Shown: in pieces, positions 1,495 to 63,877 of the stretch
Position numbering within the stretch: position 1 is the stretch's first letter
Layout: each line of letters opens with the position of its first letter
Assembly: GCA_022829145.1 (NCBI GenBank)
Contig: CM040745.1
Coordinates: forward strand, 40,896,144-40,960,143
Length of the DNA stretch: 64,000 nt
Direction: 5' to 3'
From: Albula goreensis
Lineage: Eukaryota > Chordata > Actinopteri > Albuliformes > Albulidae
Made by a program: the position numbers and the translations under genes
The notes under the pieces: model-generated
Told to the model about the DNA's origin: nothing
The model's database searches: none
Seen by the model: the letters and a program-made list of their open reading frames with translations, nothing else

Positions 1495-1716
1495 TACAGG
1501 TGTACCCTGTCATGTGACATTCTCTTTATGTTGTGCAGGTGTACAGGTGTACCCAAAGATGTGACATGTTCTATATGGGATTCAGGTATACAGGTGTACC
1601 CAGAGATGTGACATGCTCTTTACGTAGTTCAGGTGTACAGGTGTACCCAGAGAGGTGAAATGCTATTTATGTCTTGCAGGTGTAACCAGAGATTTCACAT
1701 GCTCTTTGTTGTGCAG
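1495..1716 (+). repeat. 47-bp minisatellite carrying the splice acceptor of the next ssuh2 exon
   Basis: Copies of 'ag|gtgtaccc' start at 1500, 1547, 1594, 1641 and 1680, and the real exon starts at 1717. Spacings are 47, 47, 47, 39 and 37 bp. Each unit includes a gtgcag- or acag-like acceptor followed by the opening bases of the exon (GTGTACCCAG). The unit at 1500 also matches further into the exon (gtcatg). The array therefore seems to have grown from the intron/exon junction itself, giving several decoy acceptors just upstream of the true one. Confidence 0.8.
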
Positions 1717-4427
1717 GTGTACCCAGTCATGGGGTTCCCTGATCCAGCTGTCAATCAGGCTGCTGAGCGGCTGGTCAGGGACCACCAAGCCAACTACTCT
1801 TCATCCGCACGGATCCTGCAGCAGGTACATCCCTCAGCTCCTTACAGCTCTTTACTGTGTTACACCCCTCAACTCCCTACAGCTCTTTACTGTGTTACAC
1901 TCCTCAGCCTCCTACAGCTTTTTACTGTGTTACACCCCTCAGCTCCCTACAGCTCTTTACTGTGTTACACTCCTCAGCCTCCTACAGCTCTTTACTATGT
2001 TACACCCCTCAGCTCCCTATAACTCTTTACTTTGTTGCACGTCTCAGCTCCCCATAGCTCCTTACAGCTCTTTACTGTGTTACACCTCTCAGCTCCCCAC
2101 AGCTCTTTACTGTGCTTCACCTCTCAGCTCACCACAGCTCTTTACTGTGTTACACCCCTCAGCTCCCCTACAGCTCTTTACTGTGTTACACCTCTCAGCT
2201 CCCCACAGCTCTTTACTGTGTTACACCCTCTCAGCTCCCCACAGCTCTTTACTGTGCAACACCTCTCAGCTCCCTACAGCTCTTTACTGTATTACACCCT
2301 TCAGCTCCCTACAGCTCTTTCATGTGTTAAACCCCTCAGCTCCCCATAGCTCTTTAGTGTTTTACACCCTTCAGCTCCTGACAGCTCTTTACTGTGTTAC
2401 ACCCTTCAGCTCCCTACAGCTCTTTACCGCTACACCCTTCAGCTCCCTTCACACCCCTCAGCTCCCTCTTTATAACTTTTTAGCTTTACCTACATTCATG
2501 TCAATGAGAAATGTCTGTTAACGCTATGCTTTGTCCGTTCGCCAGCCACTGTGTTTCGATTAATGGAAAACCCAATAGACCACTGCTCTATTCCCGTTGA
2601 TGGGAACAGAAAACTAATAAAATACCTCCGCTTCTGAAAGCTTACATTTGGTGAGAGAACGTGGGGTTAAACAAACTTTAAACACATATGACATTTTAAA
2701 AAGGGAATCGGTCATTCTTGCAGTTCAAGGATACCCTGAATTATACAATATCAAATTAAAGTCATACCGTAACACTGACAGAAAAGAGCATGTCTAATTA
2801 TTGATATCAAGGAATTCTAGCTAGTGAAAGTTATATATTTTATTGTTTGAATAGTTATGGCCTATAAAAAATAAATAGTGTATGGCCTATAAATAGTTAT
2901 GGGCTATCCTATCTAGCTAACAAGTACTAGCTAACTTGCTTGTTATGGTCTGTTATGATGATGGGGGCCTATCTCAGCTAGCTAGCTAAATATATTGATG
3001 ATAATTGTTTGACAGCCAGCTATTTTAATGTTATTATGTAATAATGTATCACTAGCAAGTTTGATGTCCACTACAAAATGGTCCCAATCAGCGATTGTCG
3101 ATTTTTGACAGGTGTGACGTTGTTCTATGTTCTGCGCTCTCACTTGCGGAATGCAGAGCGGAAATTCCGCTTATGCGTGAACGTAGGTTTACACCTTTCA
3201 GCTCCCTACAGCTCTTTGCTTATTCTTTACTGTGTTACACCTTTATAGCTCTTAACTGCTGCCTCCTGCAGCTCTTTACTGTATTACACCTCTCAGCTCC
3301 CCACAGCTCTTTACTGTGTTACACCCCACAGCTCCCTATAGCTCTTTACTGTGTTACACTCCACAGCTTCCTACAGCTCTTTACTATGTTACACCCCTCA
3401 GCTCCCTATAACTCGTTACTTTGCTGCAGGTCTCGGCTCCCTATAACTCCTTACAGCTCTTTACTGTGCTACACTCCTCAGCTTCCTACAGCTCTTTACT
3501 CTGTTACACCCCTCAGCTCCCTATAGCTCTCTATCATGTTGCACATCAAATTCAAAGGTCAAGGCTGCATTTGAAATGTGTAAATAGGTGTTGAATTTAT
3601 TTGCCATATTCTGACATTATTAGCTCATCGCTGGGCTCTCATGTGCAGGCCCGATCTCATTCACTGCTGCCATATTCTCCTGACTCTCCAGTGTTTTTGT
3701 TCACACATGTGCAAAGTACCAACCCTTGCAGCTGCAGGGTCATCAGAAAAGGAAAAATCTTGCATGTTGCATTTACAAAAGTATCAATAAAGTAAATGAT
3801 GCAGTGTTTTCTGCTTCTTTTGTCCTTAGTTTTTATTTATTTATTTAGTTAATCTTTTTTAGAGTTAGTTATTTCGTTATTGGAGATGCCCTTTTTGAAT
3901 TGCCCTTGCCTCTGAGAGAGTCTGTGCATAACCTAGATTTTAAATTTGATAATTTCAGTAATGTATTGTTGGAATGGTGGGGCCAACCCTAGTGTGAGGT
4001 GCTGTATGGAAATGGATCCTAATCTCTTCTCAAGAGTAACCACAGCACTCATTATGTTATGATGACATTTGCGCTTCCTCTATCAAATTTCTCTTTTGAC
4101 ATTCACCTTATAATGCATCTGCAGTCAGCAGCCACTGTCAACACATGTAAAGATCCATCCTTAGGCCTGTAGTCACTCTTTGACATTGCAGCATATGGTC
4201 ATTTCTTCTGTCAGTCTTTGACATTGCAGGATGGTATTTAATCTGCAGTAGTAGTCGTAATAGTGCAGTATTTTCTTTTGTTGCAGCGGCAAACCATCGA
4301 GCTGATCCCTATCACCAAAGTGACCTATAAATGGAGTGGCAGCATACACACCTACTTCGTCTATGGCAACGAGTTCCAGGTGAATGCAGATGACTACCCA
4401 GCTACGTGCTGCTGCACAGTGATGTAG
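1717..4427 (+). CDS. ssuh2: SSUH2-like protein, copy A (3' end only)
   Basis: Two coding exons are seen: 1717-1824 (108 nt, VYPVMGFPD... to ARILQQ) and 4287-4427 (RQTIELIPITKVTYKW... to the stop at 4425-4427). Both are in phase 0 with cag acceptors, and the first has a gtacat donor. They match the last two exons of copy B in length, phase and sequence, which identifies this as the C-terminal end of another SSUH2 family protein. The zinc-knuckle exons would lie left of the window; no earlier exon was found in 1-1716. The protein ends DDYPATCCCTVM. The final CTVM fits a CaaX prenylation box (X = Met usually predicts farnesylation), preceded by extra cysteines that could be palmitoylated; this is inference. 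SSUH2 is a little-studied family, and mutations in human SSUH2 have been linked to a dentin defect. The biochemical role is not established. Confidence 0.85.
1830..3540 (+). repeat. 35-bp minisatellite in the copy A last intron, split by an insertion
   Basis: A unit of about 35 bp (ctcagctccctacagctc then tttactgtgttacac) is repeated about 18 times from 1830 to 2475 and about 9 times from 3190 to 3540. It begins only a few bases after the splice donor at 1825. The two blocks are one array separated by unrelated DNA at about 2480-3188. Overlapping open frames here (for example 1655-2521 and 3095-3526) are low-complexity repeats of LSSLQLFTVLHPSAPYS type and are not considered genes. Confidence 0.85.
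2480..3188. other. Unique insert interrupting the 35-bp array
   Basis: About 700 bp without the repeat unit lies between two blocks of the same minisatellite. It is AT-rich with runs of 'agctagctag'. No open frame, clear terminal repeats or target duplication was recognised. It may be an old insertion or the ancestral intron sequence. Confidence 0.4.
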
Positions 4428-7400
4428 CACAGTTCTCTGCTCCTGCGAAGACATCACTGCAAACCCACCCACCCACCCACCACCCCAGTCTTTGCTTCTA
4501 ACCTGCAGTTTCTCGTAAAGAGGGGGAGCTCCTCCACCCTATATCCACACTGCCCCTGGTAGTGTGGTTCATTTAGGTGCTGTTAATATTTGTTAAATGC
4601 CTATAACAAGTGGGGAAGATATCATTTTACATTTATTTTAATTTACTGAGGTTACAACAAAGTGTGTATCTCCATTTTTTAAACTTTTGCTACGAGTGAG
4701 GGAAGAGTAACTCCAAAATGGTTATCCTCACTGCTACAGAATTTTACACCACAGTTAAATTAAGTCAAGCATTCATTCACAAGAGACAAATTAAAAATAA
4801 AAAAAGCTTCCCTGGATGCTTTCTGACCATTACAGTTAAAAATGTGGCGCTGTGAAGTGGCAGTAACCTCGTACCTGGTGTATTGTGATTTATGGTCAGA
4901 CATTTGCTAAATTTGAATCGGAAATTTTTTTACTTGATAAATTATGGTCCAGCCTACAATGTAAGCTAAATTCTGAATGTTACATTCTGCACTGTTATAG
5001 AAATCTTATGTTTTTGTTTTTTTTTCCACCAAATTCTTCCTCACATTACTACTTACTCCAAGTACATTCTCTCAAATGATTGACATGAGAACAACTATGA
5101 CTGAAATGAGTTCACTCCCCCTACACAGTAAGTACAGTATCGAAAAACACAGACTTCATAAATTCAAGATGGTATTGAATAATATTTGTGGGACATAATT
5201 ATAGTTTGAAATATAGTTTGTTACACAGTATTATGCATGTAGATGTATTAAACGTGTGTGCAATGCATGCAGTTAAAAGAACAATTTTACTCTCATTTAA
5301 AAATATATATGGGACTATATCCAGTATCTATAACCAAGAGCGCTACATCCTATAACATGTCGGCTGAGAATGAAGACTAGCTAATGATTGATCAAAGAAA
5401 GTCACTTTTGTGACCACTTTAGCCTTCCTTAAAGATATGCCTTTTACAAATATGGTATGTAGAATTAACAGTGTTTTACTTGAAGTTATCCTGACTTCAG
5501 TGGTGGAAAGGAGTGTGATGTTCAATTTTATCTGCTGAACAGAAAATAATTTTGTTACAGTGCTGTGAAACCAATTCACACACAGACAACATGGTTATGT
5601 TTTGAAAAAATGTAACCTTTGCTGGGCTATCCTGTACTTTCCTCTGTTACATTTTTTTTCTTCAAGACTGTATGAATGCCTGTAAAACTGCAATGTTTCA
5701 TAAAAGAATGCCTGAATGTAATGCTTTCTGGACTTTTAATATTTTTTTATATATAACTCGTCTGTTTTTCTTAATGGTAACATTGAATAAGGTGCCTCAG
5801 TCTTGGAAAATATAATTGTGTAGTTGTACGTATTAATATCAATAACTACAAAACAAGCAGTCCTCCCTTTGTGTGGGCTAGTGAACCAGCAGCCAAGTAC
5901 ATCAGCTGTCATCTATCTTTGGTTCTCACTCCTTCCACTTGCATTCATTTAGGGGTCAATTCAGACCTGCGCTCAGCGCGACTTAAGCGCTTTTTTGATC
6001 CGTTGCGCGCCCTTTCAGTGTCTGTTCGTATTCTGACCTTGAACCTTTATGCGTGCTTAAGAGACTTGCGCGTTTGGGGTGGAGATTCATAGAATTTGGG
6101 GAGTTTCTCATTAAAATGACCTCTATGCGGATTTGGACTTAGACTTAAACGGATTTTCAGGGTGCTTATTGTGCGCACACCACAACCTAGTATTAAGTCA
6201 TGCAATCCTATCGATCAGACTTTGATACTACATTTTTTTCAGTGTTAACGTATTGCATGAAGTAGAAAATTAATGAATATAATTGGTCAGCACGACTAAC
6301 GGATTGTTTATTGGATGACGGGATACATTGACTGGAAGGACAGGCGCTGATTACATCTAAATATGAGAAATGTAAAATATGAGCAGGTACATTGTTCATC
6401 TTTGATGTCCAGCATTGCAATTTGCTGCTACTGCTACTCCACAAAAGTGCATATTAAAATTTCATTGTATTGCCCATTCGTACTGCAACTAGTATGTGGT
6501 CTTGACAAGTAATCAGTATATTTTAGATTAATCGCATAATGGTATCCAATTGACTGAAATATATTAAAACATAAAACTGCTTTTAAAACCGAACTGCTTA
6601 ACTCTTACATGTAGATTGCACGGCATGATTTTCAGAATATAATTTATCTGATAAAACGTTAAAGCCAGCAGAAACGATCCAAGTTCGTAAATTACAAGGT
6701 AGAGTCTGCATGGCTAAGTCACCCATTTGTTTGATCAACTTTCAAAATTGGACGTTTTCTCTGCTAAGCAGAAGATTTTTTAGTACTAGGTAAGGTAACT
6801 TGGAGAAAAACATTACTGGGCCATATAAGTTTTCGTGGGGTTGTGTCATTTTCCAGGCTGAATTAGCATTAGTTAAGACCTTATGTGGGTCCTCATACTT
6901 TTTTGGGCATGGCCGCATAAACCAGGGCTGTGTCCCAAACTGCAAACACTCAAAAAATAATGCCTAAAACGCTGACTTTGTCTTTCAATTACATGTAATT
7001 TTTCCATCCAATTTTATTACATAATAATGTTACATAATGCAATGTTTTTCTATCATGTTGAGTCAAACTTATACATTAACCCTGTATGTTTCAATTCAAT
7101 TATTACATATCAAGTTAAGGGGAACTTCTACATAGACAGCATGTGTTTATTCAAGTATTATGCATAAAAGTAATGCATTTAAAATTGGTTATTCTATGTC
7201 CCTTAATAAACCACAAAGGAATACACACAAGCACAAACTTCTGAAAACTTTATTGCCAGATCCATTAAAATGAACATGGATAGGCCAATAGTACTTCAAA
7301 GTAACAACTTCAGTGACAGAGTCTTTCAATGTATTTGTTCCATCAGCAATTCAAAAGACAAAGGGACATATCAGCAAGACCTAGTAATGGCAAAATTAAA

Positions 7401-8800
7401 CATAATATCCAAACTACAAAGTGCACAAGGTTTTCCAGTGTACAGAAAACCCAACAGTACTTAAGGAGAATAAAGGCATAACACTTTCCATCTTTGACAA
7501 ATATTAACAATATTCCTGACATGACCCAAGTTTTCTGGTGTCATCTCCACCTAAAACGACTCTCAGGTGGACTGGACTTGACATCTTTCACTGAATGTAT
7601 TCTAGGCAACAAATGCAGGAAACAAAAGTTAGGAAAAGTACTGAACCATTACTGCAGCTTCATATTAGAACTTCAGCTAATGGTTATTAGCATCATCAGT
7701 TAGTCTGAGGATTCCCATCGGTTCACTCCTACTGCAGAACTTGAGCCTAGGACTCCCTTGGAGGACACAGTGCAGCCTGCAGGGCACATTTTCAGCTGTA
7801 AATCTCAGGTTCTAGCACTGCCTTTAATTGAACATGTAAACCATAAATGTAAAAGTGTAAAAAATATTTCTCATAAATGTTTTGAATACATTTTTTTAGA
7901 TGTGAAGCAGCTCTGAGCTCTTATGTAACACAATCACAGAATCATGGTTAGCTTCACTATTCTAGAAGCATAAGCCAATGATGACATGCATCTAGTTCAA
8001 ATTCATGTTTATTTAGAGCCCTTAATCACAGTTACATTCTGAAAGGGCATTCCAGGCTTACAGTTGATAGTAAACAGTAACTATACCCCCTGACCTGAAC
8101 CCTAAACCCTCATAGCAGGCAAGATAAATGGAAAAAAAAAAAAACCTTTTGAAGGATTGCAGAGAGAGGAAGCCCCTTCCACACCCCCAGCTTCTGATAT
8201 CATTTTGCTGTTGTACAATTATGGACCCTGTTTTTAACACTGGATTTTTTATAATAAAAACAAACAATCTGTCAGTGATTTAAGGTAGCACAGGGTGAGA
8301 CCTTGATACAAGTTTTACATGTAAATCAAAACAGAATATGGATGCAAATATAGAGTGGGGCTTTGCATCAATGATACTGTGTTTCCTTGTTTTTACTACA
8401 GTGCAAATATTTCTCATTACAAACAGTAGGTATTTAGTCAAATTACAGTTCAATGGATTGTGAATTAACTGAAAATGCATGACCACACAATATCTGCTGT
8501 CATCTTTTTGTATTGTGATACATTGGATTACTCAAAAAAACCTCAAATATTTACATAAATCACAAAAATATTTGAATAATATCATGTAATTCAATATTTT
8601 TTCAGATGATTGACTAATTGATCATGCAATTATTTGTTACACCCCTACTTGAGTGAGAAAGAAAAGTCACATTATAGACATAATAATGATATGCCTTTTC
8701 AAGGTAACCATCTGTCTCACACCTACAGTGTAGTCACAGAGATAAGCATCAGCCAGGTCTTCAAGATCAACCAGGGCAACCTTAGAGAGGTTCGGACATA
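4428..8800. other. Copy A 3' flank and gene-poor spacer
   Basis: This begins with the 3' untranslated region of copy A. The first AATAAA on the + strand is at 4796-4801, a possible poly(A) signal. No supported coding exon was found. At 5945-6180 a more GC-rich block (cagacctgcgctcagcgcg) stands out from the AT-rich surroundings and looks like a fragment of a dispersed repeat. On the minus strand an AATAAA (tttatt at 7249-7254) could end a transcript coming from the 8827-9860 gene fragment. Confidence 0.5.
4796..4801 (+). terminator. Candidate poly(A) signal of copy A
   Basis: AATAAA lies about 370 bp after the stop codon at 4425-4427, in an A-rich stretch. Other A-rich sequences follow, so actual use is unproven. 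Confidence 0.35.
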
Positions 8801-8826
8801 CAGTCAACTCATAAGCTCTGAAGTGC

Positions 8827-9860
8827 TCATGACACCACACGCACAATATTCTTACAACAAAGCTCAAAGTTTTTAACAATGCACATTTGAAGAATTTCTA
8901 CAAACTCAGGCAGACCACCAGTTGAACCATGAGGAATTAGCACGCCAATTCTGTAGGAGATTCCTTTGATGGTTGCATTTTTGGCAAGATGTACCTCATT
9001 CATCTTGGGGTATTTCTGCGTGAGAAATGCCACTGCTTCCTTGTTCAGTACTTCCGCAGGAAGCGTGGAAACATTTGCAACTTCCAATGTGGATTTGAGG
9101 TGGGAAAAATTGATATGATATTTAATCATTTGCTGATGTTTGGCTGCTAATGTGAGTGGTATATTTTTGAAATAATTTGTATGACAAGCAACATGCTTAA
9201 AGAAGCTATGCTTCACCTCAAACCTCATAGTCCATTGCCCTAGTAAAGGGCCAAAACATTTGATCATTTGACGGTAATGTTCAAGATAGTGTTTCGGTAA
9301 AAGTTGTGCAGGAAAAAGCTCCAAGAATCTATCTCTGTGTTCTGTGATTTTGCGGTCCAGGTAGGCAATGGTCTCTTTATTATGAAGGGGGGCAACAGCG
9401 AATTCAACCATTTCTTTTAAATCAAGCAACACAAGCCAAGCAGGCCCTGCCTCTGGTACCAAGTCTCAAATTATAAATGGGAGCAAACTCAATAAATTCT
9501 AATTTTCATGGGTGTTACCTCCAATGGTCCTTGTAGAATTATAAGTGTGTGGTAAAATATGAGGTTTATTAGTTCTATCCCCTCACTTATATGGAAAGTT
9601 CAGGATTAATTTGTTAAGAGTGTTAAGAGGCAGGTACTTTTGGAAATTAATACACCAATGCAGAGGGCAATCTCAATTGGAATAACACCCTCAAATTCGT
9701 CATGAACAATGTCAGGAGGGAAGCCCTGAGTGACATGAAAATAAGATAGTCTTAGTAAAAACACACTATCCTCTTTACTCCACAACAAATGGTAATATAA
9801 GTCTGAAATACAGGAAAATCTTTCTCTAAGTGTACAGAAAACACTATGAACTGGGAACAA
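8827..9860 (-). pseudogene. Mobile-element-associated protein fragment (uncharacterised fish family)
   Basis: Two open segments on the minus strand, 9860-about 9657 and about 9462-8827, read as parts of one protein and are separated by an interval that looks like an intron or a small disruption. The first contains GFPPDIVHDEFEGVIPIE. The second contains LLDLKEMVEFAVAPLHNKE, LLPKHYLEHYRQMIK and MRFEVKHSFFK. This combination is familiar from multi-copy uncharacterised proteins in fish genomes that behave like transposon-derived genes. The exact superfamily is not certain. A plausible donor follows CIG near 9657, and an acceptor may lie near 9455. No N-terminal start was found, so the copy appears partial. 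Catalytic residues could not be assigned. Confidence 0.5.
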
Positions 9861-22501: not shown

Positions 22502-25500
22502 GTATGTTTTCCACAGGTAACAACCTTACAGCTTACTAATAAGGGGTATGACTACAGGTAACAACCTCAAAGCTCACGAATAATGGATACAATTACAGGT
22601 AACACCCTCACAGCTCACTAATGAGGAAAATAACCACAGGTAATGACCATACAGCTCACTGATGAGGAAAAAAACCATAGGTGATGACCATACGGCTCAC
22701 TGATGAGGAAATTAACCGCAGCTAATGACCGTATAGCTCAGTGATGAGGAAAATAACCACAGGTAATGACCATACGGCTCACTGATGAGAAAATAACCAC
22801 AGGTAATGACCATAGGGTTCAATGATGAGGCAAAAAATGCAGGTAATTCCCATAAGGCTCACGAATGAGGAAAATAACCACAGGTAATGATCATAGAGCT
22901 TACTGATGAGTAAATTAACTGCAGCTAATGACCATAGAGCAGGGGTGGGCAACCCTGGTCCTTGAGTGCCAGAGACATTTCTGGTTTTCACCCCAGCCAA
23001 ACCCCTGACAGTTTAATCAGACAGGGGTTAATTAACAGACAGAGTTAATTATCAGTCCTTAATGACTGCAGTTGACCTTGTGCTGGAGCTGGAAGAACAG
23101 CTTCACCATTCAGGATTAGGCCCTTTATAATTACTCAAACTCTACTCAAGAACTCGGGCAGAACAAAAAATCCCGAAACGGCTCTGGCGCTCAAGGACCA
23201 GGGCTGCCCACCCCTGCCATAGAGCTCACTGATGAGGAAAATAAACACATGTAATGACCTCACAGCTCAGTAATAAGTGTAATGGCCCTTAACCTCACAT
23301 AGTCCCTAATAAGTTTAATCAACTGTAAATTGCTTTTTGTGAAATTGTCAAGTAAACAACTGTAATATTAAGGTAAAGGTTCTTAACAAACAGCAGACTG
23401 ACAGGTTTTCTTTTTATTGTGTGTAGGTGGTGTGGCTTCAAACCAGTCAGATGGCTGGAGGGGCAACAGCGCCCCCTGCAGATCTGATGGACACAGTGCC
23501 AGGTTATGAAGGGATGGGTACAGGAGGGAAAGGTGAGTTACAACATGCACTTTGCTATATAGATGAAATAGCTGTTAACCTCTGCACCAACACTAACAAG
23601 GTTTATAAGATCCTGACATCAAGGCTAATAAAGGTTTTTGCAGCTGGGTGTATCCTTAACAGGATACTGCAACATTGTGCCAATTATGCTCTTTTGTGGC
23701 AAAGAACCTTAATGTCTGCTCTCTCTCTTTATCAAAACTAGACCTTCCACCTCCTTACCACGGGTTACCTGAACCTCAAGTTCCAACTCCCAACCAACCA
23801 AACAGAGACTGGCAGTAAGCAAAATTTGTGTTTTAATTGTTTATTTAATTGTAATAACAAACACTATTTGGAAAAACAGAAATTCAAATGACAGAGAGTG
23901 GTTTACATTCTTTAGTCTATTACACCATGTTATATAACCATGTAACCATAGGGTGTCACGTAGCCCAGCTTGCTACAGTTTACATACACCCAAACAAATG
24001 GCATTAAAAAATCTTGTTTTTCACAACTCCACACATTTCATGTTCTTGAACATTTTCTGTGTTAAGACTGATTTGTTTATTTGATTAATTATTATATACT
24101 ACTATTTGATATTTTCAGTGTGCAAATAGTTACATACATAATTACATACAAATACATACACTTGTTTTTTAAATTTGGTGATAATGCCTTTTACTTGCTT
24201 GACTTGAATTACAGTTTTAACCAATCATTTATACACTATTCCTGGGCCTATTAACTAAACATCCCAAAGCATAACGCCATTTCCCAAAAGACAGACCCAT
24301 TTCCCACAACTTTAAACACCATTCCTGTTTTCACACATGATCCAGATTTGTTGAGCTTTTTGTGCAAAACTCTACACACAAATCCCTTCATTTATTACTG
24401 GCTACACAATGTGCTCATTTAGAAAGCACTTGCATTCAATATCATTAACTCAAGTCATCACAACTCAAACCCCAATTAACACAATTCTCTATGAAAACAC
24501 TAACAGTCAAAATTGTTCACACTATACTCAGAACTTCTGGGTGGATAAATAAAAGGGGCAGTTCACATGTTTTGTGTCCAGAAAGACATGAAGGTAGATG
24601 GGCACATGAGGGGTGGAGCAGAAGGAGGAGGAAGAGGAATTGGAAGGCCAGGGGCAAGGATGTTGCTTATGAGACCTATGCAATGCTAGATGACCATGTC
24701 TTTGTTCATGGGATGTCAATAAGGGAAGCTGGGCATAGTGCAAATCTGGGCCATTTCCCAGTAGCCTCTAAAATCTGGACCTTCAATGGTTTATAAGATC
24801 ATGTATATTGACTAGACCACAGGGAGCCAGGACAACAAGAGCAGCCACTCTGTGATGCAATTTGGGACAATGTCAGTTTCCACCAGGCTGCTCTGGTTCA
24901 TGACTGGTTCAGTAAAAACCCAAGTTTCAGTGACATCTCTCTCCCTGCATATTCTCCCTTCCTCAATGTCAGAGAGACGTTTTTCGGCATGAAGGTAGAA
25001 GGCCATGGTGGAGGCTTGTTTGGATATTACGGTTGAGGCTTGCCAAGGGTGGATAACTTTGATATTTACGACCCCTATAAACACAAAACTGCTTCATCAA
25101 CAACATCTTATTGTAACTAATTCAGCATTTTACTAACAACAGCTGAGAAACTCTCCTGTGTTGGTATGATTTGTTCGGGATAATAATTAAATGGCAGCAC
25201 TGCTTGTTTGAAAGCTAGGGATATGGAGTTGTATGTGAAAAACCGGTTGCATAATGAGATAGCACATTTGATATTATGACTCCTGTAAAAATAAGTAAAT
25301 TCAATGAAATCGACAGTATGTGGGCACTTTTATTGTAGTAACCAAATTAAACAATAAATAAAGAAGATAAATTAGATAAAAATGAATACAATACAGTAAA
25401 TATTTAAATGTAGAAGTATTAAAATAAATAAAATGATAAATACAATGAAAAACAGCACTTAAAATAAATAATATGTAAATAAATGAAATATATATGAAAG

Positions 25501-31500: not shown

Positions 31501-34500
31501 TTGAAGAGGTTTTATTGATGAATCAGATCTACAGCTGAATTCCTGAATGCTGAAAGCACTGACACCTTGGGTGTGTTCCAATACTTTTCTTGTCTCCTTC
31601 TCTTGTCTCCTACCCTGGAAGAATTGATGTATTCTAGTAACTTCGACTGATTCCGAGGATACCTAAGCCAATCAAAATATTATGTGATATAGTCCTTTAA
31701 TCTGACTGGTCATGAGCACAATGATGTCACCCAAAATTTGTGAGAAGACTTCCACAGTAGAATACATGGATGTATCCTTCATTTGGAGGAAACGAGGAGG
31801 CAAGGAGAGTTGAGTATTGGAAAGCACTTCAGATCATTGAAAAGCCATTACTTGAAAGATGATTTAAAGTTGAGGTCAAAGGCAATGAAATGATGAGCCC
31901 AGCCTGCCTTGTGTTAAAATCTGTTTTAGGAAAAAAAAGGGACTTCAAGACAACTCCAGCTGCATTAACAGAAATACTGCTAGTAATGAAAGCAAGCACA
32001 CTCAGGGTGCAAGAAGATCAGGGTTAGGGACCAGTTTATTCGAATATGGGCTCACTTTGCTTCACTGTATCCTCCTCCCAGGTCAGGTAGTGGATGGGTA
32101 CATGGGTGTGGCTCCAGGACCCTGGGACATCGCTGTGTCTTCTCCAGCCATGTTTCAGAATAACAGAAAGGAGGTCCCCATTCCCCACACATCCTCTGTA
32201 AAGGTAGAATAATAATAACATTCCTCCTACACTATCTGTCTGTCTATCTATCTATCTATCTATCCATCTGTCCATCTATCTAAAGTGGTGCAGATTTTTT
32301 CTACCCAAAATGTGTTCTTATGAATTTTCAAAATATTTTGAATAGAACAAAACTTGGGCACTGTGGTGCAGTGGCAGGTATGGCCATTCAGCCAGGTGGT
32401 CAGTGGAAGGGGAAACAGACAAAAGTTTATTGGCCTAATGCCTTTTTATTTACTCCCTTTTGGGGGGAAAAAAACCCAACACAGGAAAGAAACCACAAAA
32501 GTACATTGCAAACCAGCACAGACAGTGGGGAAAAACAACGTAAAACAAAACTAGTCCTCCTTCAGCCTTCAAGGCTGTGCTTAAATAAGTGGCCTAACTG
32601 AAGGCAAGTGCTAGCACCTTTGAATAGCAATGATCCCCAGGTGAGCCTGCCTGTTAGCGAGGCCCCTGCTGTTCAAGCTCCTGTAGTTTCTCCAGGCTGA
32701 ATGAGGGACCAGGGGCCTCATTTACAAAAAAAAATATGGTCCAAAATGTGTGTACACCGATTTTCACACAAATTTCAGGATTTATAAAACTTCCACTTGA
32801 CATGAGCTCATGCATACTGGTACGCTACATTTGACCCATGTGTATGCATATTTTGGGCACATATTTGCTCTAAATAGCACATCCTAGAGCCCATTTAAAT
32901 GATACTTTAACGCACTCCATTCTGGCATAAATGGACAAAGTGGAATAAATGGATAAACTCTTTTTCACACAGTGGGATTCACATATCGTATGACATTGAG
33001 TGCAGATGCAAGGCTAACATTAACCAGCAACAAAGACTAGACATTGAACAATGTCATGGTATACAGTATTATATATTATTTCTAACCCAACTCTAGCATT
33101 TTACTCCTAACCCATCTCCAGAGTATCATTCCTAACCCATCTCCAGAGTTTCATTCCTAACCCATCACCAAAGTATTATTCCTAACCCAACTCCAGAGTG
33201 TCATTCCTAACCCATCTCCAGAGTTTCATTCCTAACCCATCACCAGAGTTTCATTCCTAACCCAACTCCAGAGTTTCATTCCTAACCCAACTCCAGAGTT
33301 TCATTCCTAACCCAACTCCAGAGTATCATTCCTAACCCATCTCCAGAGTTTCATTCCTAACCCAACTCCAGAGTTTCATTCCTAACCCAACTCCAGAGTG
33401 TCATTCCTAACCCCTCTCCAGAGTTTCATTCCTAACCCAACTCCAGAGTGTCATTCCTAACCCAACTCCAGAGTTTCATTCCTAACCCATCACCAAAGTA
33501 TTATTCCTAACCCAACTCCCGAGTGTCATTCCTAACCTGTCTCCAGTGTGTTATTCCTAACCTGTCTCAAGTGGTATTTCTAATGGAGCTCCATTATGTC
33601 TGGAATGTAGGATCAGAAGCTACAGTTCCTCTATGCTGTTTGACCCTGAGATTCAGTGACAGGCTGATGTCCTACGCTGCTAGCTGTCATTGGCATTGTC
33701 TAAGAAACTGCTTCATACTAATCAGTTGCATTGTAATGTTTCACACTTACGGGTCCTGATAAAGCTTTGCACTTTGAAGCTGTACTTGTGGAGTAATGTG
33801 GATGTTTTCCACCAATATTTATGTTGTTTAAAATGTAAACGGAAGTTTACTTTCCATGTGCCTTAACATCATGCCTACCTACTTAATCTAGAGATGTGGC
33901 ACACAAATGATTTTAAGGTCTGCCATCATAATCAATAGATACTTTATATACACATGTTCACATTGATAACTGAATTTAGATATATCTCAAAAATACCATC
34001 AAGGTTAAGTTAACCTTTGCTAAGGATCGATTCTTAACTACCTATGTTTAAGGATTCCTGGGTTATGTTGCCATCTGCTGTATATATAGAAGTAACCTCT
34101 ATTAACCTGGTTATTGAGTGCCTCTAACTGAGGCTTTCAGTAGGTGCTCATGCAGTATCCCTGTACTGTGGTTTTTAGAGTGCTGCTTATTTATTGTGAC
34201 TGATTGTGTTGTGTTCTCCAGGGCTGCCATGCGTGCTTGGGTCTGGGTAGATCTGCCTGCCCTAAGTGTGTGACTTCAGGAATGGTAACGCCCCCGCAGG
34301 AGTCACCTCAGCTGTGTTTCCACAGCCAGACTGGGTCGGAAGCACTGCAGCCCTTAATTAGTTATATATGGTTTCAAAATGCATTATCTGGCATCTGTCT
34401 TGTTGCAGAATATAACTTGTTATAACAACAAAAATGATTGGTAAATGGCAGTGGTCATCCACCACTGTATACATAGTAAAAATACATACATTTTTTGCAA

Positions 34501-37500
34501 TAATTATTATACTTTTTCCATCATAGCCAGTGAAATCTTTATGTAATCTAACATGTAAATCACATTGCAACATTGTTGTGAAAATTATCAACAGGGACAC
34601 CTGAGCACAATCCGTGCTAAATAACGTATGTGACAGGAAAAAATAAAGAAAACATTTGTGCTCTGAGCATGAACTGGACATGGCTATTGGGGCTAGAGAG
34701 TCCATTCAAATACATTTTCAACTTTCTTTGTAATAATATTACAAGAAATTCTGCAACTACAGAATTTTTCAGAACCCATACTTCCAGGTGTCTGTCCCAA
34801 AAATGGGGTATTATTTTGCATTCACACCCAAAATATTTGCAAATAGTACCATTTACTGTCGGTAGCCCTGGGTGTGATAATGTATTTTCTTGATTTCAGA
34901 TGCAGTGCTGGGTTTGCAGAGGAGCAGGAAGGCGTGTTTCTGATGACCGTTGCTCTCACTGCAACGGCATTGGGAGAGTCCGGTCAGAGTTACATTTCAC
35001 TGCACACAGTAACTAAAGCCACAGTCCAGTCAGAGTTACATTTCACTGCACACAGTAACTAAAGCCACAGTCCAGTCAGAGTTACATTTCACTGCACACA
35101 GTAACTAAAGCCACAGTCCAGTCAGAGTTACATTTCACTGCACACAGTAACTAAAGCCACAGTCCAGTCAGAGTTACATTTCACTGCACACAGTAACTAA
35201 AGCCGCAGTCCAGTCAGAGTTACATTTTACTGCACACAGTAACTAAAGCCGCAGTCCAGTCAGAGTTACATTTCACTGCACACAGTAACTAAAGTCCAGT
35301 CAGAGTTACATTTCACTGCACACAGTAACTAAAGCCGCAGTCCAGTCAGAGTTACATTTCACTGCACACAGTAACTAAAGCCACAGTCCAGTCAGAGTTA
35401 CATTTCACTGCACACAGTAACTAAAGCCGCAGTCCAGTCAGAGTTACATTTTACTGCACACAGTAACTAAAGCCACAGTCCAGTCAGAGTAACATTTCAC
35501 TGTACATTAGGGCTGCCCCCGACTAAAGCTTTTTCTCGTCGACTAGTTGTTGCTCGTTTATGATATTAATTTAATTATTTAAATACAGTTGTGCTCAAAA
35601 GTTTACATACCCCGGCAGAATTTTTGCTTTCTTGGCCTTTTTTCAGAGAATATGAATGATTACACAAAAACTTTCCTTCCACTCATGGTGGTTGGGTGAA
35701 GCGATTTACTGATAAACAACTGTGATTTCTATTTTTAAATCATAATGACAACAAAAAACATCCAAATGACCCTGATCAAAAGTTTACATACCCCAGTTCT
35801 TAATACCATGTATTGCCCCCTCTAACATCAACGACAGCTTGAAGTCTTTTGTGGTAGTTGTGGATGAGGCTCTTTATTTTCTCAGATGGTAAAGCTGCCC
35901 ATTCTTCTTGGCAAAAAGCCTCCAGTTCCTGTAAATTCCTGGGCTGTCTTGAATGAACTGCACGCTTCAGATCTCCCCAGAGTGGCTCAATGATATTGAG
36001 GTCAGGAGACTGAGATGGCCACTCCAGAACCTTCACTCTGTTCTGCTGTAGCCATTGACAGGTCGACTTGGCCTTGTGTTTTGGATCGTTGTCATGTTGG
36101 AACGTCCAAGTACGTCCCATGCGCAGCTTCCGGGCTGATGAGTGCAAATTTTCCTCCAGTATTTGCTGATAACATGCTGCATTCATCTTTCCTTCAACTT
36201 TGACCAAGTTTCCTGTGCCTTTGTAGCTCACACATCCCCAAAACATCAGCAATCCATCTCCATGCTTTACAGTAGGAATGGTGTTCCTTTCATCATAGGC
36301 CTTGTTGACACCTCTCCAAACGTAATGTTTATGGTTGTGGCCAAAAAGTTCGATTTTGGTCTCATCACTCCAAAATACCTTGTTCCAGAAGTTTTGAGGC
36401 TTGTCTCTGTGCTGTTTGGCGTATTTGGCTTTCTTCTGGCGACTCGACCATGCAGCCCATTTTTCTTCAAGTGGCTCCTTATTATGCATTTTGAAACAGC
36501 CACACTGCTAGTTTTCACACAGTCCTGTATTTCAGCTGATGTTATTTGTGGGTTTTTCTTTGCATCCCGAACAATTTTCCTGGCAGTTGTGGCCGAAATT
36601 TTTGTTGATCTACCTGACCGTGGTTTGGTTTCAACAGAGACCCTGATTTTCCATTTGTTAATCACAGTTTGAACACTGCTGACTGGCATTAGCAATTCCT
36701 TGAATATCTTTTTGTGTCCCTTTCCTGTTTTATACTACCTTTTCCCGTAGATCCGTTGACAATTCTTTTGCTTTCCCCATGACTCAGAATCCAGAAACGT
36801 CAGTGGCTTTATGAAAGATGCAAGAGTCTGTCTGGATCCCAGAAACTCACTCAGCTTTTATGCACACACACTGATTACAAGCAAACAGATCACAGGTGAG
36901 GATGGTTACCTTTAGTAGCCATTCAAACCCATTTGTGTCAACTTCTGTGCATGTTATCAGGCCAAAATCACCAGGGTATGTAAACTTTTGATCAGGGTCA
37001 TTTGGATGTTTTTTGTTGTCATTATGATTTAAAAATAGAAAACACAGTTGTTTATCAATAAATGGCTTCACCCAACCACTGACCATGAGTGGAAAAAGTT
37101 TTGTGTTATCATTCATATTCTCTGAAAAAAGGCCAAGAAAGCAAAAATTCTGCTGGGGTATGTAAACTTTTGAGCACAACTGTATAAACAGAAATTGGTT
37201 TTAGTTCTGAGAAAGAATGTTACTAGTGACATTGTTAACACTGTGCAACTTTACTAAGAAATACAAAATCGTAATAATGAGCCTTTAAAATACAAATTTT
37301 ACAAGCGTGCACACAAAGCGAGCTGCCTGTTAATGACAATGTTACCCAACATTAGCACTCATTTAATGCCGTACTCGACTAACCCCTTTAACATATTATT
37401 TTAAAAAATATATTAGAACAACGCAATTACATCAGGTTCACCAAAAAACTTTATTTGCTCACTCAAGCAATGTTTATTCACTGACACAAACACTGGGACT

Positions 37501-40500: not shown

Positions 40501-43500
40501 GGTGCTCTACTCCTCATAAGGAGAAAGCAAAGATGGAGTGATTATAGCAGGGCAGTGAATTCTACACGGCACGTAGTAGGAGAATACTACTCGCCTTTAA
40601 GAGCAATGAAATTTAAAGATATAGAGTACTACAGCCGTTACATCAGGATGCTACCAAAATATTTTTTTAGGCTATTACCTGTTGTTGCACCAGGACTGCA
40701 ACATAGGTCAACGCATCTTCAGCCTATATCGCCCGGTGAAAGGCTGAGCTTGACATTACGACAGGTTATGTATGACCTTAGCATATGCTGCCAGGCTTCA
40801 ATAATACATAAAAGATGTACAAATGCAAGTTAGTCTATTTTTAAAAGAAAATTATTTAATTGTTCTAAATGAGAAACACGTGAGTTTGTGAGCTCGCTTC
40901 CAATGTGTAATGGTAACCATTCACAACACAGACTGTTATAATCATGTATGTCACAGTCCCATAGGCTAGGTTAAACTGGAAATCAATACATTTACCAGCA
41001 GACCAGGAAATGCAGATAAGCTGACAATAAGAAAGCAGTCTAACAAATGCGCCTCATCTTGTCATACTACAGACTAATCACTGTAACTATCTTTAAAATC
41101 AATTAAAACGCGGAATCTAACATTGGTTTCTCATTTCATTTTTCTACCATGACGTTATCTTGGAATTTCGGAAACGGGCTAGCATTAACAACATAAATTC
41201 CACTTTTAAATATGGGTGGTGTGGCAAGAGGTAAGCACTCAGTTACAGTGAATCACTAAGTAGGTATTGTTGTTAGCCTGCATATCTGTTTTGACTAACA
41301 TTAGCTCTGTAAGTTAGCTGAGTAGAACTTTAAGCAGTTATGCAAGACGTTATGAGCTAGCTAGAGAGCTACTTACAGGTAGTTTTTATTTGGTAAGCAA
41401 TTGCTGACCAGGCATTCTCCTTTCTTTCTGGCATCTTTCATCTTTTAATCTGCCTGGTCATAGGTATATACTCACAGCACGTAGTGAGTTTTGTTTGCCT
41501 GATTGTTTTTCTGTGAATTTGCAAACACATATATTTACAACAATTTCAATCAGTTCACAAGTGTTGTTGTTTTTTCCCCAAAAGACAATATTTTCCTAGT
41601 TGGCCAGGAATAGCATGTATACTTAAAACATCAGAGGGCAAGTGTTCAAAAATAGGCTTATGAACAATGTTCTTGTTTAATGACTGCATTCTCTGATAGG
41701 AAACATAAATGTCATGTAGGCTAATCATATTCAAACATAAAAATATAACCACTTGAGGCCTTTTCTAAAAACAGAATATATCACTCATATTCCAACATTT
41801 TGACAATCATTTGGACCAAAAACACTGGTCTCTGTTTTCTAATTTTAGTTTTTTGCTGTAAAATATTTCTGGCATGGTCAATTGGTCAAATGATCTTCTC
41901 TACCCACTGATTTCTACTGCATATACTTATATGTATATTATATCACTGCCTTTGAATGTGTGTTTTATTTTTTGTTTTGTTTTGGTTTTTTTGGGTGGGG
42001 GGGCGGCAGGGCGTGTCATGATGAGGTAAGGGGGCGTTCGTTCAAGAAAGGTTGAGAAACACTGCTTTAGAGTCTGAGAAAAATTTTAGTGCTCCATGGC
42101 AAACTGTATCAAACAACTTTAGCGAAGAAGCTGGGGCAATCATATATACTATGTCTCCATAATCTAATTGAGAGAGAAACAGCAGACAAGAGTCTCTTTC
42201 TAGCTTCAAAAGAAAAACAAGATTTATTTCTAAAATAAAATCCTAAATTTTTTCACCAGGTATTCAATGTGAGGTTTGAAAGTAAGGATATACATTTTAT
42301 ATATCTTTGTGTCTTTGTGAACACCATCAGTTTAGTTTTTTCCTCGTTCAGTACAAGCCTTAGCTGATGAAATTGGGACTGTACAAAGTTAAAAGCAGAC
42401 TGCAGATTCTCAAGAGCCTCAGTTAAATTAGGAGCACAACAATAAAGGACTGTATCATGTGCGTAAAAATGAAAATGAGCATTTGATACATACAAGTCCA
42501 ACAGTCCTCTTTACCATGGATACATATTTATCTTGTTAGTTTACATATATATGTTAATCACTACTGAGATTTTATGTGTGATTATTTTGAATTGATAGAG
42601 CCCTGCACGCTGTAAAAGTGTGTGACTGAGCCTTACACACTGTTAGTCAAGTTTTTTCCCACTTTTTCATATGATGACAATTACTTGATTAAAAACATGA
42701 ATGTGTTTTTACTGCATGATCCACCCAAAAGTGTAATAAATGTAAGGTGACCAGAAATGAAACATTGAATCTTGGATGCACTCTCATACCATTAAATTAC
42801 AATCAATACATGTCTAGCTACAAATGGCTGAAAACTTTATTCATTTTCTGGAAATGTCACGGCATTGCATGCATGAAGTTGCACTTGTATATTGTGTTAT
42901 AGGAGTATCCACTTTACTTGTGTGATCTGTTATAGGAGTATCCAGTTTACTTGTGTTTTCTGTTATAGGTATATCTAGTTTACTTGTGTTTTGTGTAAAA
43001 GGAGTATCCAGTTCACATGTGGTCTCTGTTATAGGTATATCCAGTTTATTTGTGTACTCTGTTATGTTGACTTGTGTACTCTGTTATAGGTATATCCAAT
43101 TTATTTGTGTACTCTGTTATAGGTGTATCCACTTTTTGTGTGTACTCTGTTATAGGTGTATCCAGTTTATGTGTGTACTCTGTTATAGGTGTATCCAGTT
43201 TATGTGTGTACTCTGTTATAGGTGTATCCAGTTTATGTGTGTACTGTGTTATAGGTGTATCCAGTTTATGTGTGTACTCTGTTATAGGTGTATTCACTTT
43301 TTGTGTGTACTCTGTTATAAGTGTATCCATTTTTTGTGTGTACTCTGTTATAGGTGTATCCAGTTTATGTGTGTACTCTGTTATAGGTGTATCCAGTTTA
43401 TGTGTGTACTCTGTAATAGGTGTATCCAGTTTATGTGTGTACTCTGTTATAGGTGTATCCAGTTTATGTGTGTACTCTGTTATAGGTGTATCCAGTGGTT

Positions 43501-61800: not shown

Positions 61801-63877
61801 TGGGCGCTTGTGGTGGCACGAACCAATTGTACGCTGACTACGTCTTCCTCCGACGTCATAGGCAGTGTGCGACTGGTGGTGCGGCCGTAATGTGAAAAAG
61901 AAGCGGGATTGTTGACACGTGATTTGGAGGAGTACCTGGGGTACACAGTGAATGGGTACACACTGTGTGGGTGTGTACATGGGTTTAGAATGAGTGTGTC
62001 CACACTGAGTGTGTACTGGGATTCACAGTGAATGTGTGCACACAGTGAGTGTGTACTGGGGTGTAGGGTGATCATGTGCACACTGTGTGAGTGTGTATTT
62101 GGGTTTACAGTGAGCATGTGCACACTGTGTGAGTGTTTACTGGGGTTTAGAGTGAGCGTGTGCCCACTGTGTGAGTGTTTACTGGGGTTTAGAGTGAGCG
62201 TGTGCACACTGTGTGAGTGTGTACTGGGATTCACAAAGAATGTGTGAACTCTGTGTCTCACCCATAGATGCTGGCGCTGCAGTGGAAAAGGTTATAAAAC
62301 ATGTCCGTCCTGCCAGGGACACCAAAACCTGATGCACTTCATTCAGCTGTCCATCAAATGGTAAGATTTATTTCACTGGTTTCAAGTCAGAGCAGCGTTC
62401 ACTCTGGCAGTGGCAGATGTTGCTTGTGAAACAGCTTGTTGCATGGGCAGTGTAATGGACATGTTTACGGAGATATTTGGAATTTCAGGCGGGGAAACTA
62501 CTGTCCAAGACAGGACATATCTGAGGGGCATGTGAGTGGATGTACTGTGTAGGGTCTTGACTCTCAGTCCATACTGGTCTATATTTTATGCGTCTGTAAA
62601 TGTAAGAATGCATTCGTGGCCAATTACTGACAGCGTATTTTATCCTGCACCATTTACCAGGAAGAACGAAGCTTTTGAGTTTATCCCAGATCGGTTTCCT
62701 GAATTCCCAGTGAAGAAGTTTAAGAAGGTTTCCGGGGACCAGTTTTTTGTGGACGAAAGCATCCTGGTATGGACACACATTGTGCTTCCTCTGGCCTAAA
62801 AAGTTGACATCTTTGCAGAGTAAATAACGAAGAGCTACCATGTAATGTACATGACTCAGTGATTTAAACAAATGACCACATTGACTTAAGAGAGAAAAAC
62901 CTTTTTTGATCAGTTCAAACAAGTCCATGATTGACAGATTAGTGCAGGTCCACCCTAAGGGCTCATGAAAGCTCATTTTAACCATCACTAGATGTTGGTT
63001 AGCGATATTCACTCTAGCCACGGGAGATCTGTAAAGGGTGAAGGGATTTGTTGTTAACTGGCCACTTAATTCAGTAGATAAAGTACTTCATTACAGTGAT
63101 GGTACCTGGATAGAAGCACTGGGGAAGCCAGGCAAAGGAAAAATTGAAATGCCACCCAGTAAAACCTAATCTTCTGATGTATAAACTATATACCTTTTGC
63201 TTTGTAATATATAGGGTTAGATCAACATGTGTACAGGATCACAAGCTTAGCTTCATAAGAGCACAGTTACAAAGATATGGAGTAAGGGAATCCACATGCA
63301 TACGCTTATCATTCATCACAGTTAATCATCTCTGGTCCACAACATGAAACCAATCCTGCAGATAGTGAACAGATACACGATTGACTGTGTTAATAAAATG
63401 CCAAGTGGTACTGCTGACCAGGGTGGCTTTTCTTGCATTTTTTCTTGCATTTTGAAGAGCTATTGACCAATTAAAGCAAGAATACTTTTGGCAACTCTGG
63501 TGACACTAAAGAAAAAAAAATACCTACAAATTATGAATGAAAATAATGAGACACAGAGATTCAAGGACACATTATTATATTATATTTTTTGTGAATCCTG
63601 GCTCCCCTTGGCCTTCATTAGTATATTCTACTAGTTCATCTCTCACAACTCAACTGAGAAGCGACTAAAAGACATTGAGAAAGAGTGAATACCAAGACCA
63701 AGAGTGAATAACACTGATTGTAATGGCTTCTAACACACCTGCTGATGTTGATTGTGCTTATTTGCTCAGGTCTATCCTATTGTGGGATTCCCTGATCAGG
63801 ATATCTGTGACATGTCCAGAAAGATGTCTGAGGAGCATCTCGTCAAGTTTTCTTCTGTCAGCCGAATTCTACAGCAG
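49878..63877 (+). CDS. ssuh2: SSUH2-like protein, copy C (last exon beyond window)
   Basis: Coding exons: 49878-49902 (ATG at 49878), 53525-53623, 53752-53836, 54425-54554, 55781-55841, 55963-56087, 57920-57982, 60888-60967, 62268-62360, 62661-62766 and 63770-63877. Together they give 325 codons in one frame; a final exon of about 47 codons, as in A and B, is expected to the right. The protein begins MDDKDEDLGDFNPAVEEEG. It has YPPPPAYVPVP (about 55-66), YRLETFTESRSSSWESEP, PHSSFVK (169-175), then six knuckles: CHQCEGRG, CRHCSGRG, CSSCYGKG, CITCSGTG, CWRCSGKG and CPSCQGHQ. The last lacks the closing Gly. The C-terminal part has HFIQLSIKWKNEAFEFIPD and VYPIVGFPD. Exon phases equal those of copy B. 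Acceptors are cag- or tag-type except aag at 60888. The first intron (about 3.6 kb) carries a hAT element. Family membership is clear; function is not established. Confidence 0.9.
51854..52815. mobile_element. Non-autonomous hAT element, 962 bp, perfect 8-bp target duplication
   Basis: The left end tagtgttgtcacaatac and the right end gtataccgtgcaactcta are inverted with mismatches. gtaggggt occurs at 51846-51853 and 52816-52823. Internal sequence includes gataccgatacc and its inverse. No transposase frame was recognised. It lies in the first intron of copy C. Confidence 0.8.
55853..55930 (+). repeat. gct/gtt trinucleotide repeat
   Basis: An imperfect (gct)n/(gtt)n run lies in the short intron between exons 55781-55841 and 55963-56087, ending about 35 bp before the acceptor. 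Local open frames of alanine/valine are artefacts. Confidence 0.9.
56905..57744 (-). mobile_element. Second copy of the hAT-ended/Harbinger-like element, truncated
   Basis: The reverse complement of 57744-56905 matches 40121-40975 closely, including the terminus tagggtttctcaacggggg and the start of the open frame (minus 57400-57194, MEEEAIVITLSLSG). A change after EYYS shifts this copy's frame early. The far end (caccc-rich ttgagaaacactg terminus) is missing, so it is truncated near 56905. It lies in the intron before the first zinc-knuckle exon of copy C. Confidence 0.8.
58232..58760 (+). mobile_element. Harbinger relic with Myb/SANT-like coding remnant
   Basis: The end gggcctcattcatcaata followed by cgtaaaactgtgtgtaaag is typical of PIF/Harbinger elements. 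Around 58470-58720 the + strand reads, with frame breaks, KTKAWQEITVAVNSV. This matches the style of the Myb-like DNA-binding protein that accompanies Harbinger transposases. Stops follow directly. The right boundary is uncertain. Confidence 0.5.
60219..60243. repeat. Poly-T tract
   Basis: An uninterrupted run of about 25 T. It may be the reverse-orientation tail of a retroposed sequence, but no body was identified on its left. Confidence 0.7.
60519..60790 (+). mobile_element. LINE reverse transcriptase fragment
   Basis: The + strand reads SPPGVGIGAFSLHCISNVID, then KFTDDTKLGGLANTIE and LIQEDLNRIPKWA. This is the RT active-site region of a fish non-LTR element, with the catalytic ADD changed to TDD. 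It lies about 100 bp before the exon at 60888, and its frame happens to run through that exon, so a simple ORF call would fuse the two. Confidence 0.7.
61593..61930 (+). mobile_element. tRNA-derived SINE
   Basis: The head gtggcctctgagtgactcgtg and a B-box-like ggtttgattcc at 61648-61658 resemble a polymerase III promoter of tRNA origin. A body with cgccctccttggggctgcttg and cgtcttcctccgacgtc follows to about 61930. No cloverleaf of a working tRNA can be drawn with confidence, so it is called a SINE rather than a tRNA gene. Confidence 0.6.
61935..62245 (+). repeat. 42-bp minisatellite just upstream of a copy C zinc-knuckle exon
   Basis: About seven units of actggggtttagagtgagcg tgtgcacactgtgtgagtgttt, spaced 42 bp where well preserved (62139 and 62181), end about 25 bp before the exon at 62268. 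Since 42 is a multiple of three, a minus-strand frame (62261-61770) with a 14-residue repeat stays open; it is not a gene. Confidence 0.85.

Follow-up and report, generated by a model that had tools for sequence, protein, structure and literature searches.

A minisatellite that straddles the exon 11 acceptor of an ssuh2 gene in Albula goreensis, probably derived from that gene's own junction

How does an intron come to end in a row of copies of its own acceptor, and does such a row arise anew in each gene copy or descend from a common ancestor? These questions are raised by a 64,000-nucleotide stretch of the Albula goreensis genome (assembly of 932 Mb in 208 contigs), called the window below, which covers positions 40,896,144-40,960,143 of contig CM040745.1 (here C5), a 42.3-Mb contig whose end is about 1.3 Mb away. 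The window contains the 3′ end of ssuh2-A, the whole of ssuh2-B, and ssuh2-C without its last exon. A protein search of the species' own genome found four ssuh2 loci, these three on C5 and ssuh2-D on contig C12. For gene models and array counts the window was extended by 20 kb per side to 104 kb. The A, B and C genes have 12 exons each, equal or similar in length and open in frame, with 66 junctions together; exon 1 of ssuh2-B is uncertain, and its acceptor was excluded from the junction counts. A 43-nt exon of our first ssuh2-C model (62489-62531) was false and was removed, as it disrupted the frame and had no counterpart in B.

The row stands before exon 11 of ssuh2-A, an exon of 108 nt on the plus strand (1717..1824). 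The array before it (1500..1716, plus strand) has five junction copies, each with an acceptor AG and about 10-17 exon-like bases, and the exon itself opens with the final copy of the unit's exonic portion. The sequence-only reading of this DNA had proposed a five-copy array leading to the real acceptor at 1717, and the motif AG/GTGTA(C/A)CC (slash at the splice position) was indeed found at all six positions: 1500, 1547, 1594, 1641, 1680 and 1717. The proposed 47-bp unit holds for the first three spacings, while the last two are 39 and 37 bp. Tandem Repeats Finder likewise reported a period of 47 at 1494-1684 (4.1 copies, 81% match) and a period of 39 at 1638-1726. The acceptor was also said to be followed by the same bases in every copy; the copy at 1680 departs from this and reads GTGTAACC. 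The exonic part is longer than first noticed. Of the first 17 bases of the exon, the distal copy (1500) matches 15 and the other four match 11-14.

Are these matches accidental? On the plus strand, matches of at least 13/17 to the start of A exon 11 occur only in the A array and its exon (1500, 1547, 1594, 1641, 1717) and in the corresponding array of ssuh2-B and its exon; on the minus strand there is a single one, at 61945. Because such matches are confined to the two arrays and their exons with this one exception, the likeness to the exon start is not due to chance. The repeat unit crosses the exon-intron boundary, with about 10-17 exon bases at A exon 11 and about 11 at B exon 11, and it carries splice signals, AG/GT being present in all five in-register copies of A. 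Additional AGGT sites lie in the A array at 1539, 1586, 1633 and 1655.

An array at the exon 11 acceptor is present in A and B but in neither of the other two ssuh2 copies. The B array has a 33-bp unit and runs over the acceptor (42895..43496, plus strand), with 17 junction copies upstream of the real exon start at 43486. In C, the homologous acceptor (exon at 63770..63877, plus strand) has no array, as the earlier reading held; the closest array called lies upstream and stops about 1.5 kb before it. Exon 11 of D also has no adjoining array, and the sole repeat row scoring at least 40 in its 3-kb locus has a 23-base unit and lies more than 1 kb off. Exon 11 of D (locus L007) lacks one base relative to the 108-nt exon of the other copies, which shifts the frame. 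Either a pseudogene or a sequencing error would account for this deficit.

Could all of this be an artefact of assembly or sequencing? Tandem repeats are error-prone in assemblies, and the one-base slip in D exon 11 may be one such error. However, the units of the A array differ mutually (81% match, three lengths), as falsely duplicated reads would not, and A, B and C are open over 12 exons. We regard an artefact as hardly credible.

If the array is real, then we can ask whether A and B gained their arrays separately. Apart from the exon edge, the A unit had been described as unlike the 33-bp unit of B, and our comparison agrees. When the first 10 exonic bases were removed, the unit bodies aligned no better than dinucleotide shuffles, which reached the observed score in 588/2000 trials for the 47-bp A unit and in 329/2000 for the 39-bp A unit, each against the 33-bp B unit. 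Full-length homology of the 47-bp and 33-bp units was therefore rejected. Whole units align better (the score was reached by 17/2000 and 12/2000 shuffles), as could be due to the exon edge that they have in common. Position 6 of exon 11 is C in A and T in B, C and D, so that the C of A is apparently the derived base. In the array units this position reads C, C, C, C and A in A, and T in 17/17 units of B. Within the first 17 bases, the A and B exons differ at four positions, and the distal unit of A has the base of A at all four. Since the units of A bear a base found only in A, amplification from A's own edge after divergence is favoured.

The alternative is a single array at this acceptor in the ancestor of A and B, whose unit bodies were later replaced while each array was homogenised with its own exon edge. 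This is in line with the arrays standing at the same acceptor in the two copies that are the closest C5 pair at exon 11 (A-B 66.7% over 36 residues, vs 41.7 and 58.3% for the other pairs), and with a whole-unit likeness that beats most shuffles. However, the exon of A is equally close to that of D (66.7% over 33 residues), whose exon 11 acceptor lacks an array, the units without exon bases fail to align, and the A-only base is present in the units of A. Two more homologous junctions have arrays in two paralogues, as common descent would lead one to expect. For the exon 9 acceptor the distance to the array is 84 bp in A and 11 bp in C. The exon 5 donor is spanned by an array in A; in D a 35-bp unit in 5.7 copies begins about 26 bp past this donor (locus L008 on C12) and is not clearly akin to the 43-bp array of A. 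But these pairs are weak too, with 15/300 shuffles reaching the score for exon 9 and 130/300 for exon 5, and so neither could serve as a proven positive control for common ancestry. The top z-score of the all-against-all unit comparison joined the A exon 11 acceptor array to a 45-bp array near A exon 6 (0/300 shuffles). As these are unrelated junctions, unit-comparison scores alone prove little. We consider the single ancestral array rather unlikely. The sequence-only reading had left the choice between two amplifications and one old, diverged array; the dissimilar bodies, the A-specific base and the absence of an array in C and D favour independent amplification in A and B, which is still unproven.

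Our preferred explanation, which we hold to be probable, is that the junction of ssuh2-A was duplicated in tandem after the A/B split, then amplified and partly homogenised, and that the array is tolerated up to the exon. On this view the intron would end in the final repeat of a so-called mirage array, a minisatellite with a unit lying across the boundary between intron and exon. The duplicated piece would have comprised about 17 exon bases and some 20-30 intron bases of A's own junction, at a time after A had diverged from B. Ordinary minisatellite turnover may have carried out the amplification and the partial homogenisation, in array-rich DNA about 1.3 Mb from the contig end. Since use of the acceptor next to the exon would still yield the normal mRNA, the array would be tolerated; it may therefore extend to the exon and would stop where the constraint on the protein starts.

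Several observations weigh against parts of this account. The four units of A other than the distal one deviate from the A exon at positions 11-12, and all five deviate at position 16, so the array is no fresh copy. An old array homogenised later from the exon edge would look identical. We infer from the gene model that the exon-proximal acceptor at 1717 is the one used. Moreover, use of the AG at 1633 would lengthen the exon by 84 nt (28 codons), in frame and free of stops. After the sites at 1539 and 1586 a stop comes as late as codon 40 and as codon 14, respectively, and none is met from 1655. The open, in-frame site at 1633 means that some decoys are not self-limiting, and the idea that every decoy is poisoned was rejected.

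How, then, may the real acceptor be told from its decoys? Splice matrices were trained on sites from these ssuh2 genes (29 acceptors, 29 donors). The real site of A scored 10.6 as an acceptor, against 4.1-9.7 for the eight decoys scored, the five in-register copies reaching 5.5-9.2. The in-register decoys of A all lead to early stops (5/5 within 6 codons), as do those of B (17/17 within 12 codons). At B exon 11, the 18 scored bases of the real site recur unchanged in 9/17 decoys. Local sequence is thus unable to choose among them, and exon definition or removal of wrong products would have to select the acceptor of B.

These decoys may also be read as functional. The array would then supply dual AG/GT sites for recursive or alternative splicing that tunes the output of ssuh2-A, with use of a decoy leading to nonsense-mediated decay. 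The units do carry AG/GT, several decoys score like ordinary acceptors, and the in-register ones run into early stops; tandem AGGT sites serve both roles in human UBC (PMC10809524). Against this, the A sites are weak as donors, scoring 4.1-5.2 where the training median is 8.3; an array is missing at this acceptor in C and D, and no unit is conserved between A and B. A function of this kind seems very unlikely to us.

The closest known counterparts are the mirage minisatellites of amphioxus. As described in PMC3087553 and PMC3902484, these straddle exon-intron boundaries in Adh3, in the globins BflGb6 and BflGb9, and also in troponin C and PGBD5, with units from 10-72 bp (Adh3) to 150-160 bp (BflGb6), and RT-PCR suggested regular splicing in the lancelet genes (PMC3087553). 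The ssuh2 arrays resemble them in having a boundary-spanning unit with splice signals inside it, on the acceptor or the donor side, and are a fresh occurrence of this known kind. They differ in their setting, a vertebrate-type genome of 932 Mb with several arrays in one gene cluster and array-free paralogous junctions, and in that splicing is here predicted from gene models. Among the matches listed in the open-licence literature, the word mirage in this sense was found for lancelets only, which is no proof of absence elsewhere. Two other systems invite comparison. The tandem AGGT sites of human UBC are used as both donor and acceptor, and VCX3A has a likewise dual-specific array (PMC10809524); the ssuh2-A array shares with them an AG/GT repeated at unit spacing. 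In contrast, the UBC units described there are coding, 228 nt long and in frame, while those of ssuh2-A are 37-47 bp, intronic, and give early stops in the in-register frames. A length divisible by three, as in UBC, is found for just one of the spacings 47, 47, 47, 39 and 37. The model in which introns arise when AGGT proto-splice sites are duplicated in tandem (Rogers 1989 and later work, discussed in PMC3087553) likewise uses duplicated splice-junction sequence as raw material. No new intron relative to the paralogues was found, the 12-exon layout being common to A, B and C (with B exon 1 uncertain).

Is a splice junction a place where arrays are born more readily than elsewhere? Such a hotspot might rest on microhomology of AG/GT or the pyrimidine tract, or on transcription-linked breaks. 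In the 104 kb we counted 22 arrays, after dropping the second halves of two split ones, and 7/22 lie within 12 bp of a junction. Besides the two exon 11 acceptor arrays, these are a 43-bp array over the A exon 5 donor (locus L004, 1625-2019), a 35-bp array after the A exon 11 donor, a 41-bp array after the B exon 1 donor, a 46-bp array over the B exon 8 donor and a 42-bp array before the C exon 9 acceptor. The array after the A exon 11 donor (1826..2448, plus strand) has 17.5 copies from intron base +2, with more at 3265-3530, and no exon bases were seen in its unit. The one after the B exon 1 donor (22513..22940, plus strand) starts 11 bp past the donor, and 8/9 of its AGGT sites read CAG/GTAA. 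The array over the B exon 8 donor, whose splice point lies between 34982 and 34983, occupies 34977..35506 (plus strand), with a second half at 37849-38079 past an inserted stretch. The one before the C exon 9 acceptor (61936..62256, plus strand) ends 11 bp upstream of it. In the A exon 5 array, eight in-register copies follow the real donor; 4/8 have GCCTACACAG before GT and the rest have variants of it.

The outcome of the hotspot test depended on the null model. Seven junction-near arrays in the 104 kb were reached in 0/10000 placements that avoided exons, and in the window alone the corresponding count of 6/11 was reached in 0/20000 exon-avoiding and 69/20000 exon-blind placements. With exon-blind placement, however, the seven were reached in 459/20000 trials over the 104 kb and in 1226/20000 over the gene spans. 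Junction-spanning arrays, all four of which repeat exon bases, are not in excess (4 observed vs 2.84-3.69 expected). Two or more further copies of the 20-base word straddling the junction are present within the neighbouring 700 bp at 4/66 junctions (B exon 11 acceptor, B exon 8 donor, A exon 5 donor and A exon 11 acceptor), and the same test gave 256/5000 at random non-exonic points. The excess seen in exon-avoiding permutations is thus cut to marginal or none by the exon-blind null over 104 kb and by the random pseudo-junctions, and no hotspot is established. As an explanation of the A array it seems unlikely, despite two independent cases at other genes, a Sema exon and, 31 bp off, a phosphodiesterase exon. 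Arrays fill 10.5% of the gene spans and include 38 of the 3377 exon bases. In the simplest reading, arrays are common in these introns, meet exons at roughly the chance rate, and are halted there by selection.

The two other genes came from random sampling of C5, where ten 10-kb samples from the last 2.3 Mb held 15 arrays and ten from elsewhere on the contig held 4. Ten ORF (open reading frame) pieces near these 19 arrays, chosen by eye, were run against Pfam, and 3/10 matched (phosphodiesterase, Sema and CD34-like), two of them at the edge of an array. By this partial screening, at least 2/15 arrays near the C5 end stand beside an identified exon edge. The Sema exon (Pfam E 6.3e-18) has its acceptor repeated 12 times upstream, at spacings of 36-46 bp (locus L015, C5:41000001-41010000, positions 8045-8552). 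These copies have a pyrimidine tract and an end resembling CACAG, agree with the exon at 8-12 of 12 bases, and keep the AG in 11/12 cases. The phosphodiesterase exon (Pfam E 2.4e-10) has a long array beginning 31 bp past its donor, in which GTAAGAG sites recur (locus L012, C5:40250001-40260000, positions 7314-9435). The third match, a CD34-family-like exon (Pfam E 3.5e-9; locus L014, 237-346 and 460-813, minus strand), has a 20-bp array at an estimated distance of about 180 bp, not at its edge.

Sema exons of this type are numerous, with 15 loci, the exon itself included, at 54% identity or more in the same genome; semaphorins are not known to be so numerous outside vertebrates. The junction word (at least 15/20 bases) was repeated in 0/16 Sema relatives within about 500 bp before the equivalent exon, while the positive control gave 11 copies, and this too speaks against a hotspot. 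A few of the 16 relatives contain other short repeats. For five of these relatives a contig end is less than 1.4 Mb away, yet they have no such array, so closeness to the end is insufficient. The contig end is here assumed to be a chromosome end.

What may these loci mean more widely? We suggest, tentatively and with more doubt than confidence, that mirage arrays recur in this vertebrate-type genome and are no lancelet oddity, and that near chromosome ends real acceptors may evolve by repeat homogenisation and be told from decoys by exon definition alone. If this is true, splice-site shifts and new introns could draw on such loci as a reservoir. Several mirage arrays stand here in one vertebrate-type genome, a kind previously described from lancelets. 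Repeat turnover can extend into functional splice sites and furnish raw material for intron change. The arrays are also natural experiments in splice-site choice, offering rows of near-identical acceptors of which one is used by the gene model.

Three further features of the ssuh2 region were recorded. The stretch at 35507-37848 of the window is an insertion that splits the 46-bp array of the B exon 8 donor in two, and we take it to consist of hAT-like ends with a Tc1-like piece. A regular 25-bp array of 19.4 copies lies in an ssuh2-B intron at 33078-33562, 659 bp from the closest junction. Finally, the window has an inverted pair at 40116-40974 and 56901-57749, with 95.5% identity over an 862-bp alignment, which is probably a mobile element.
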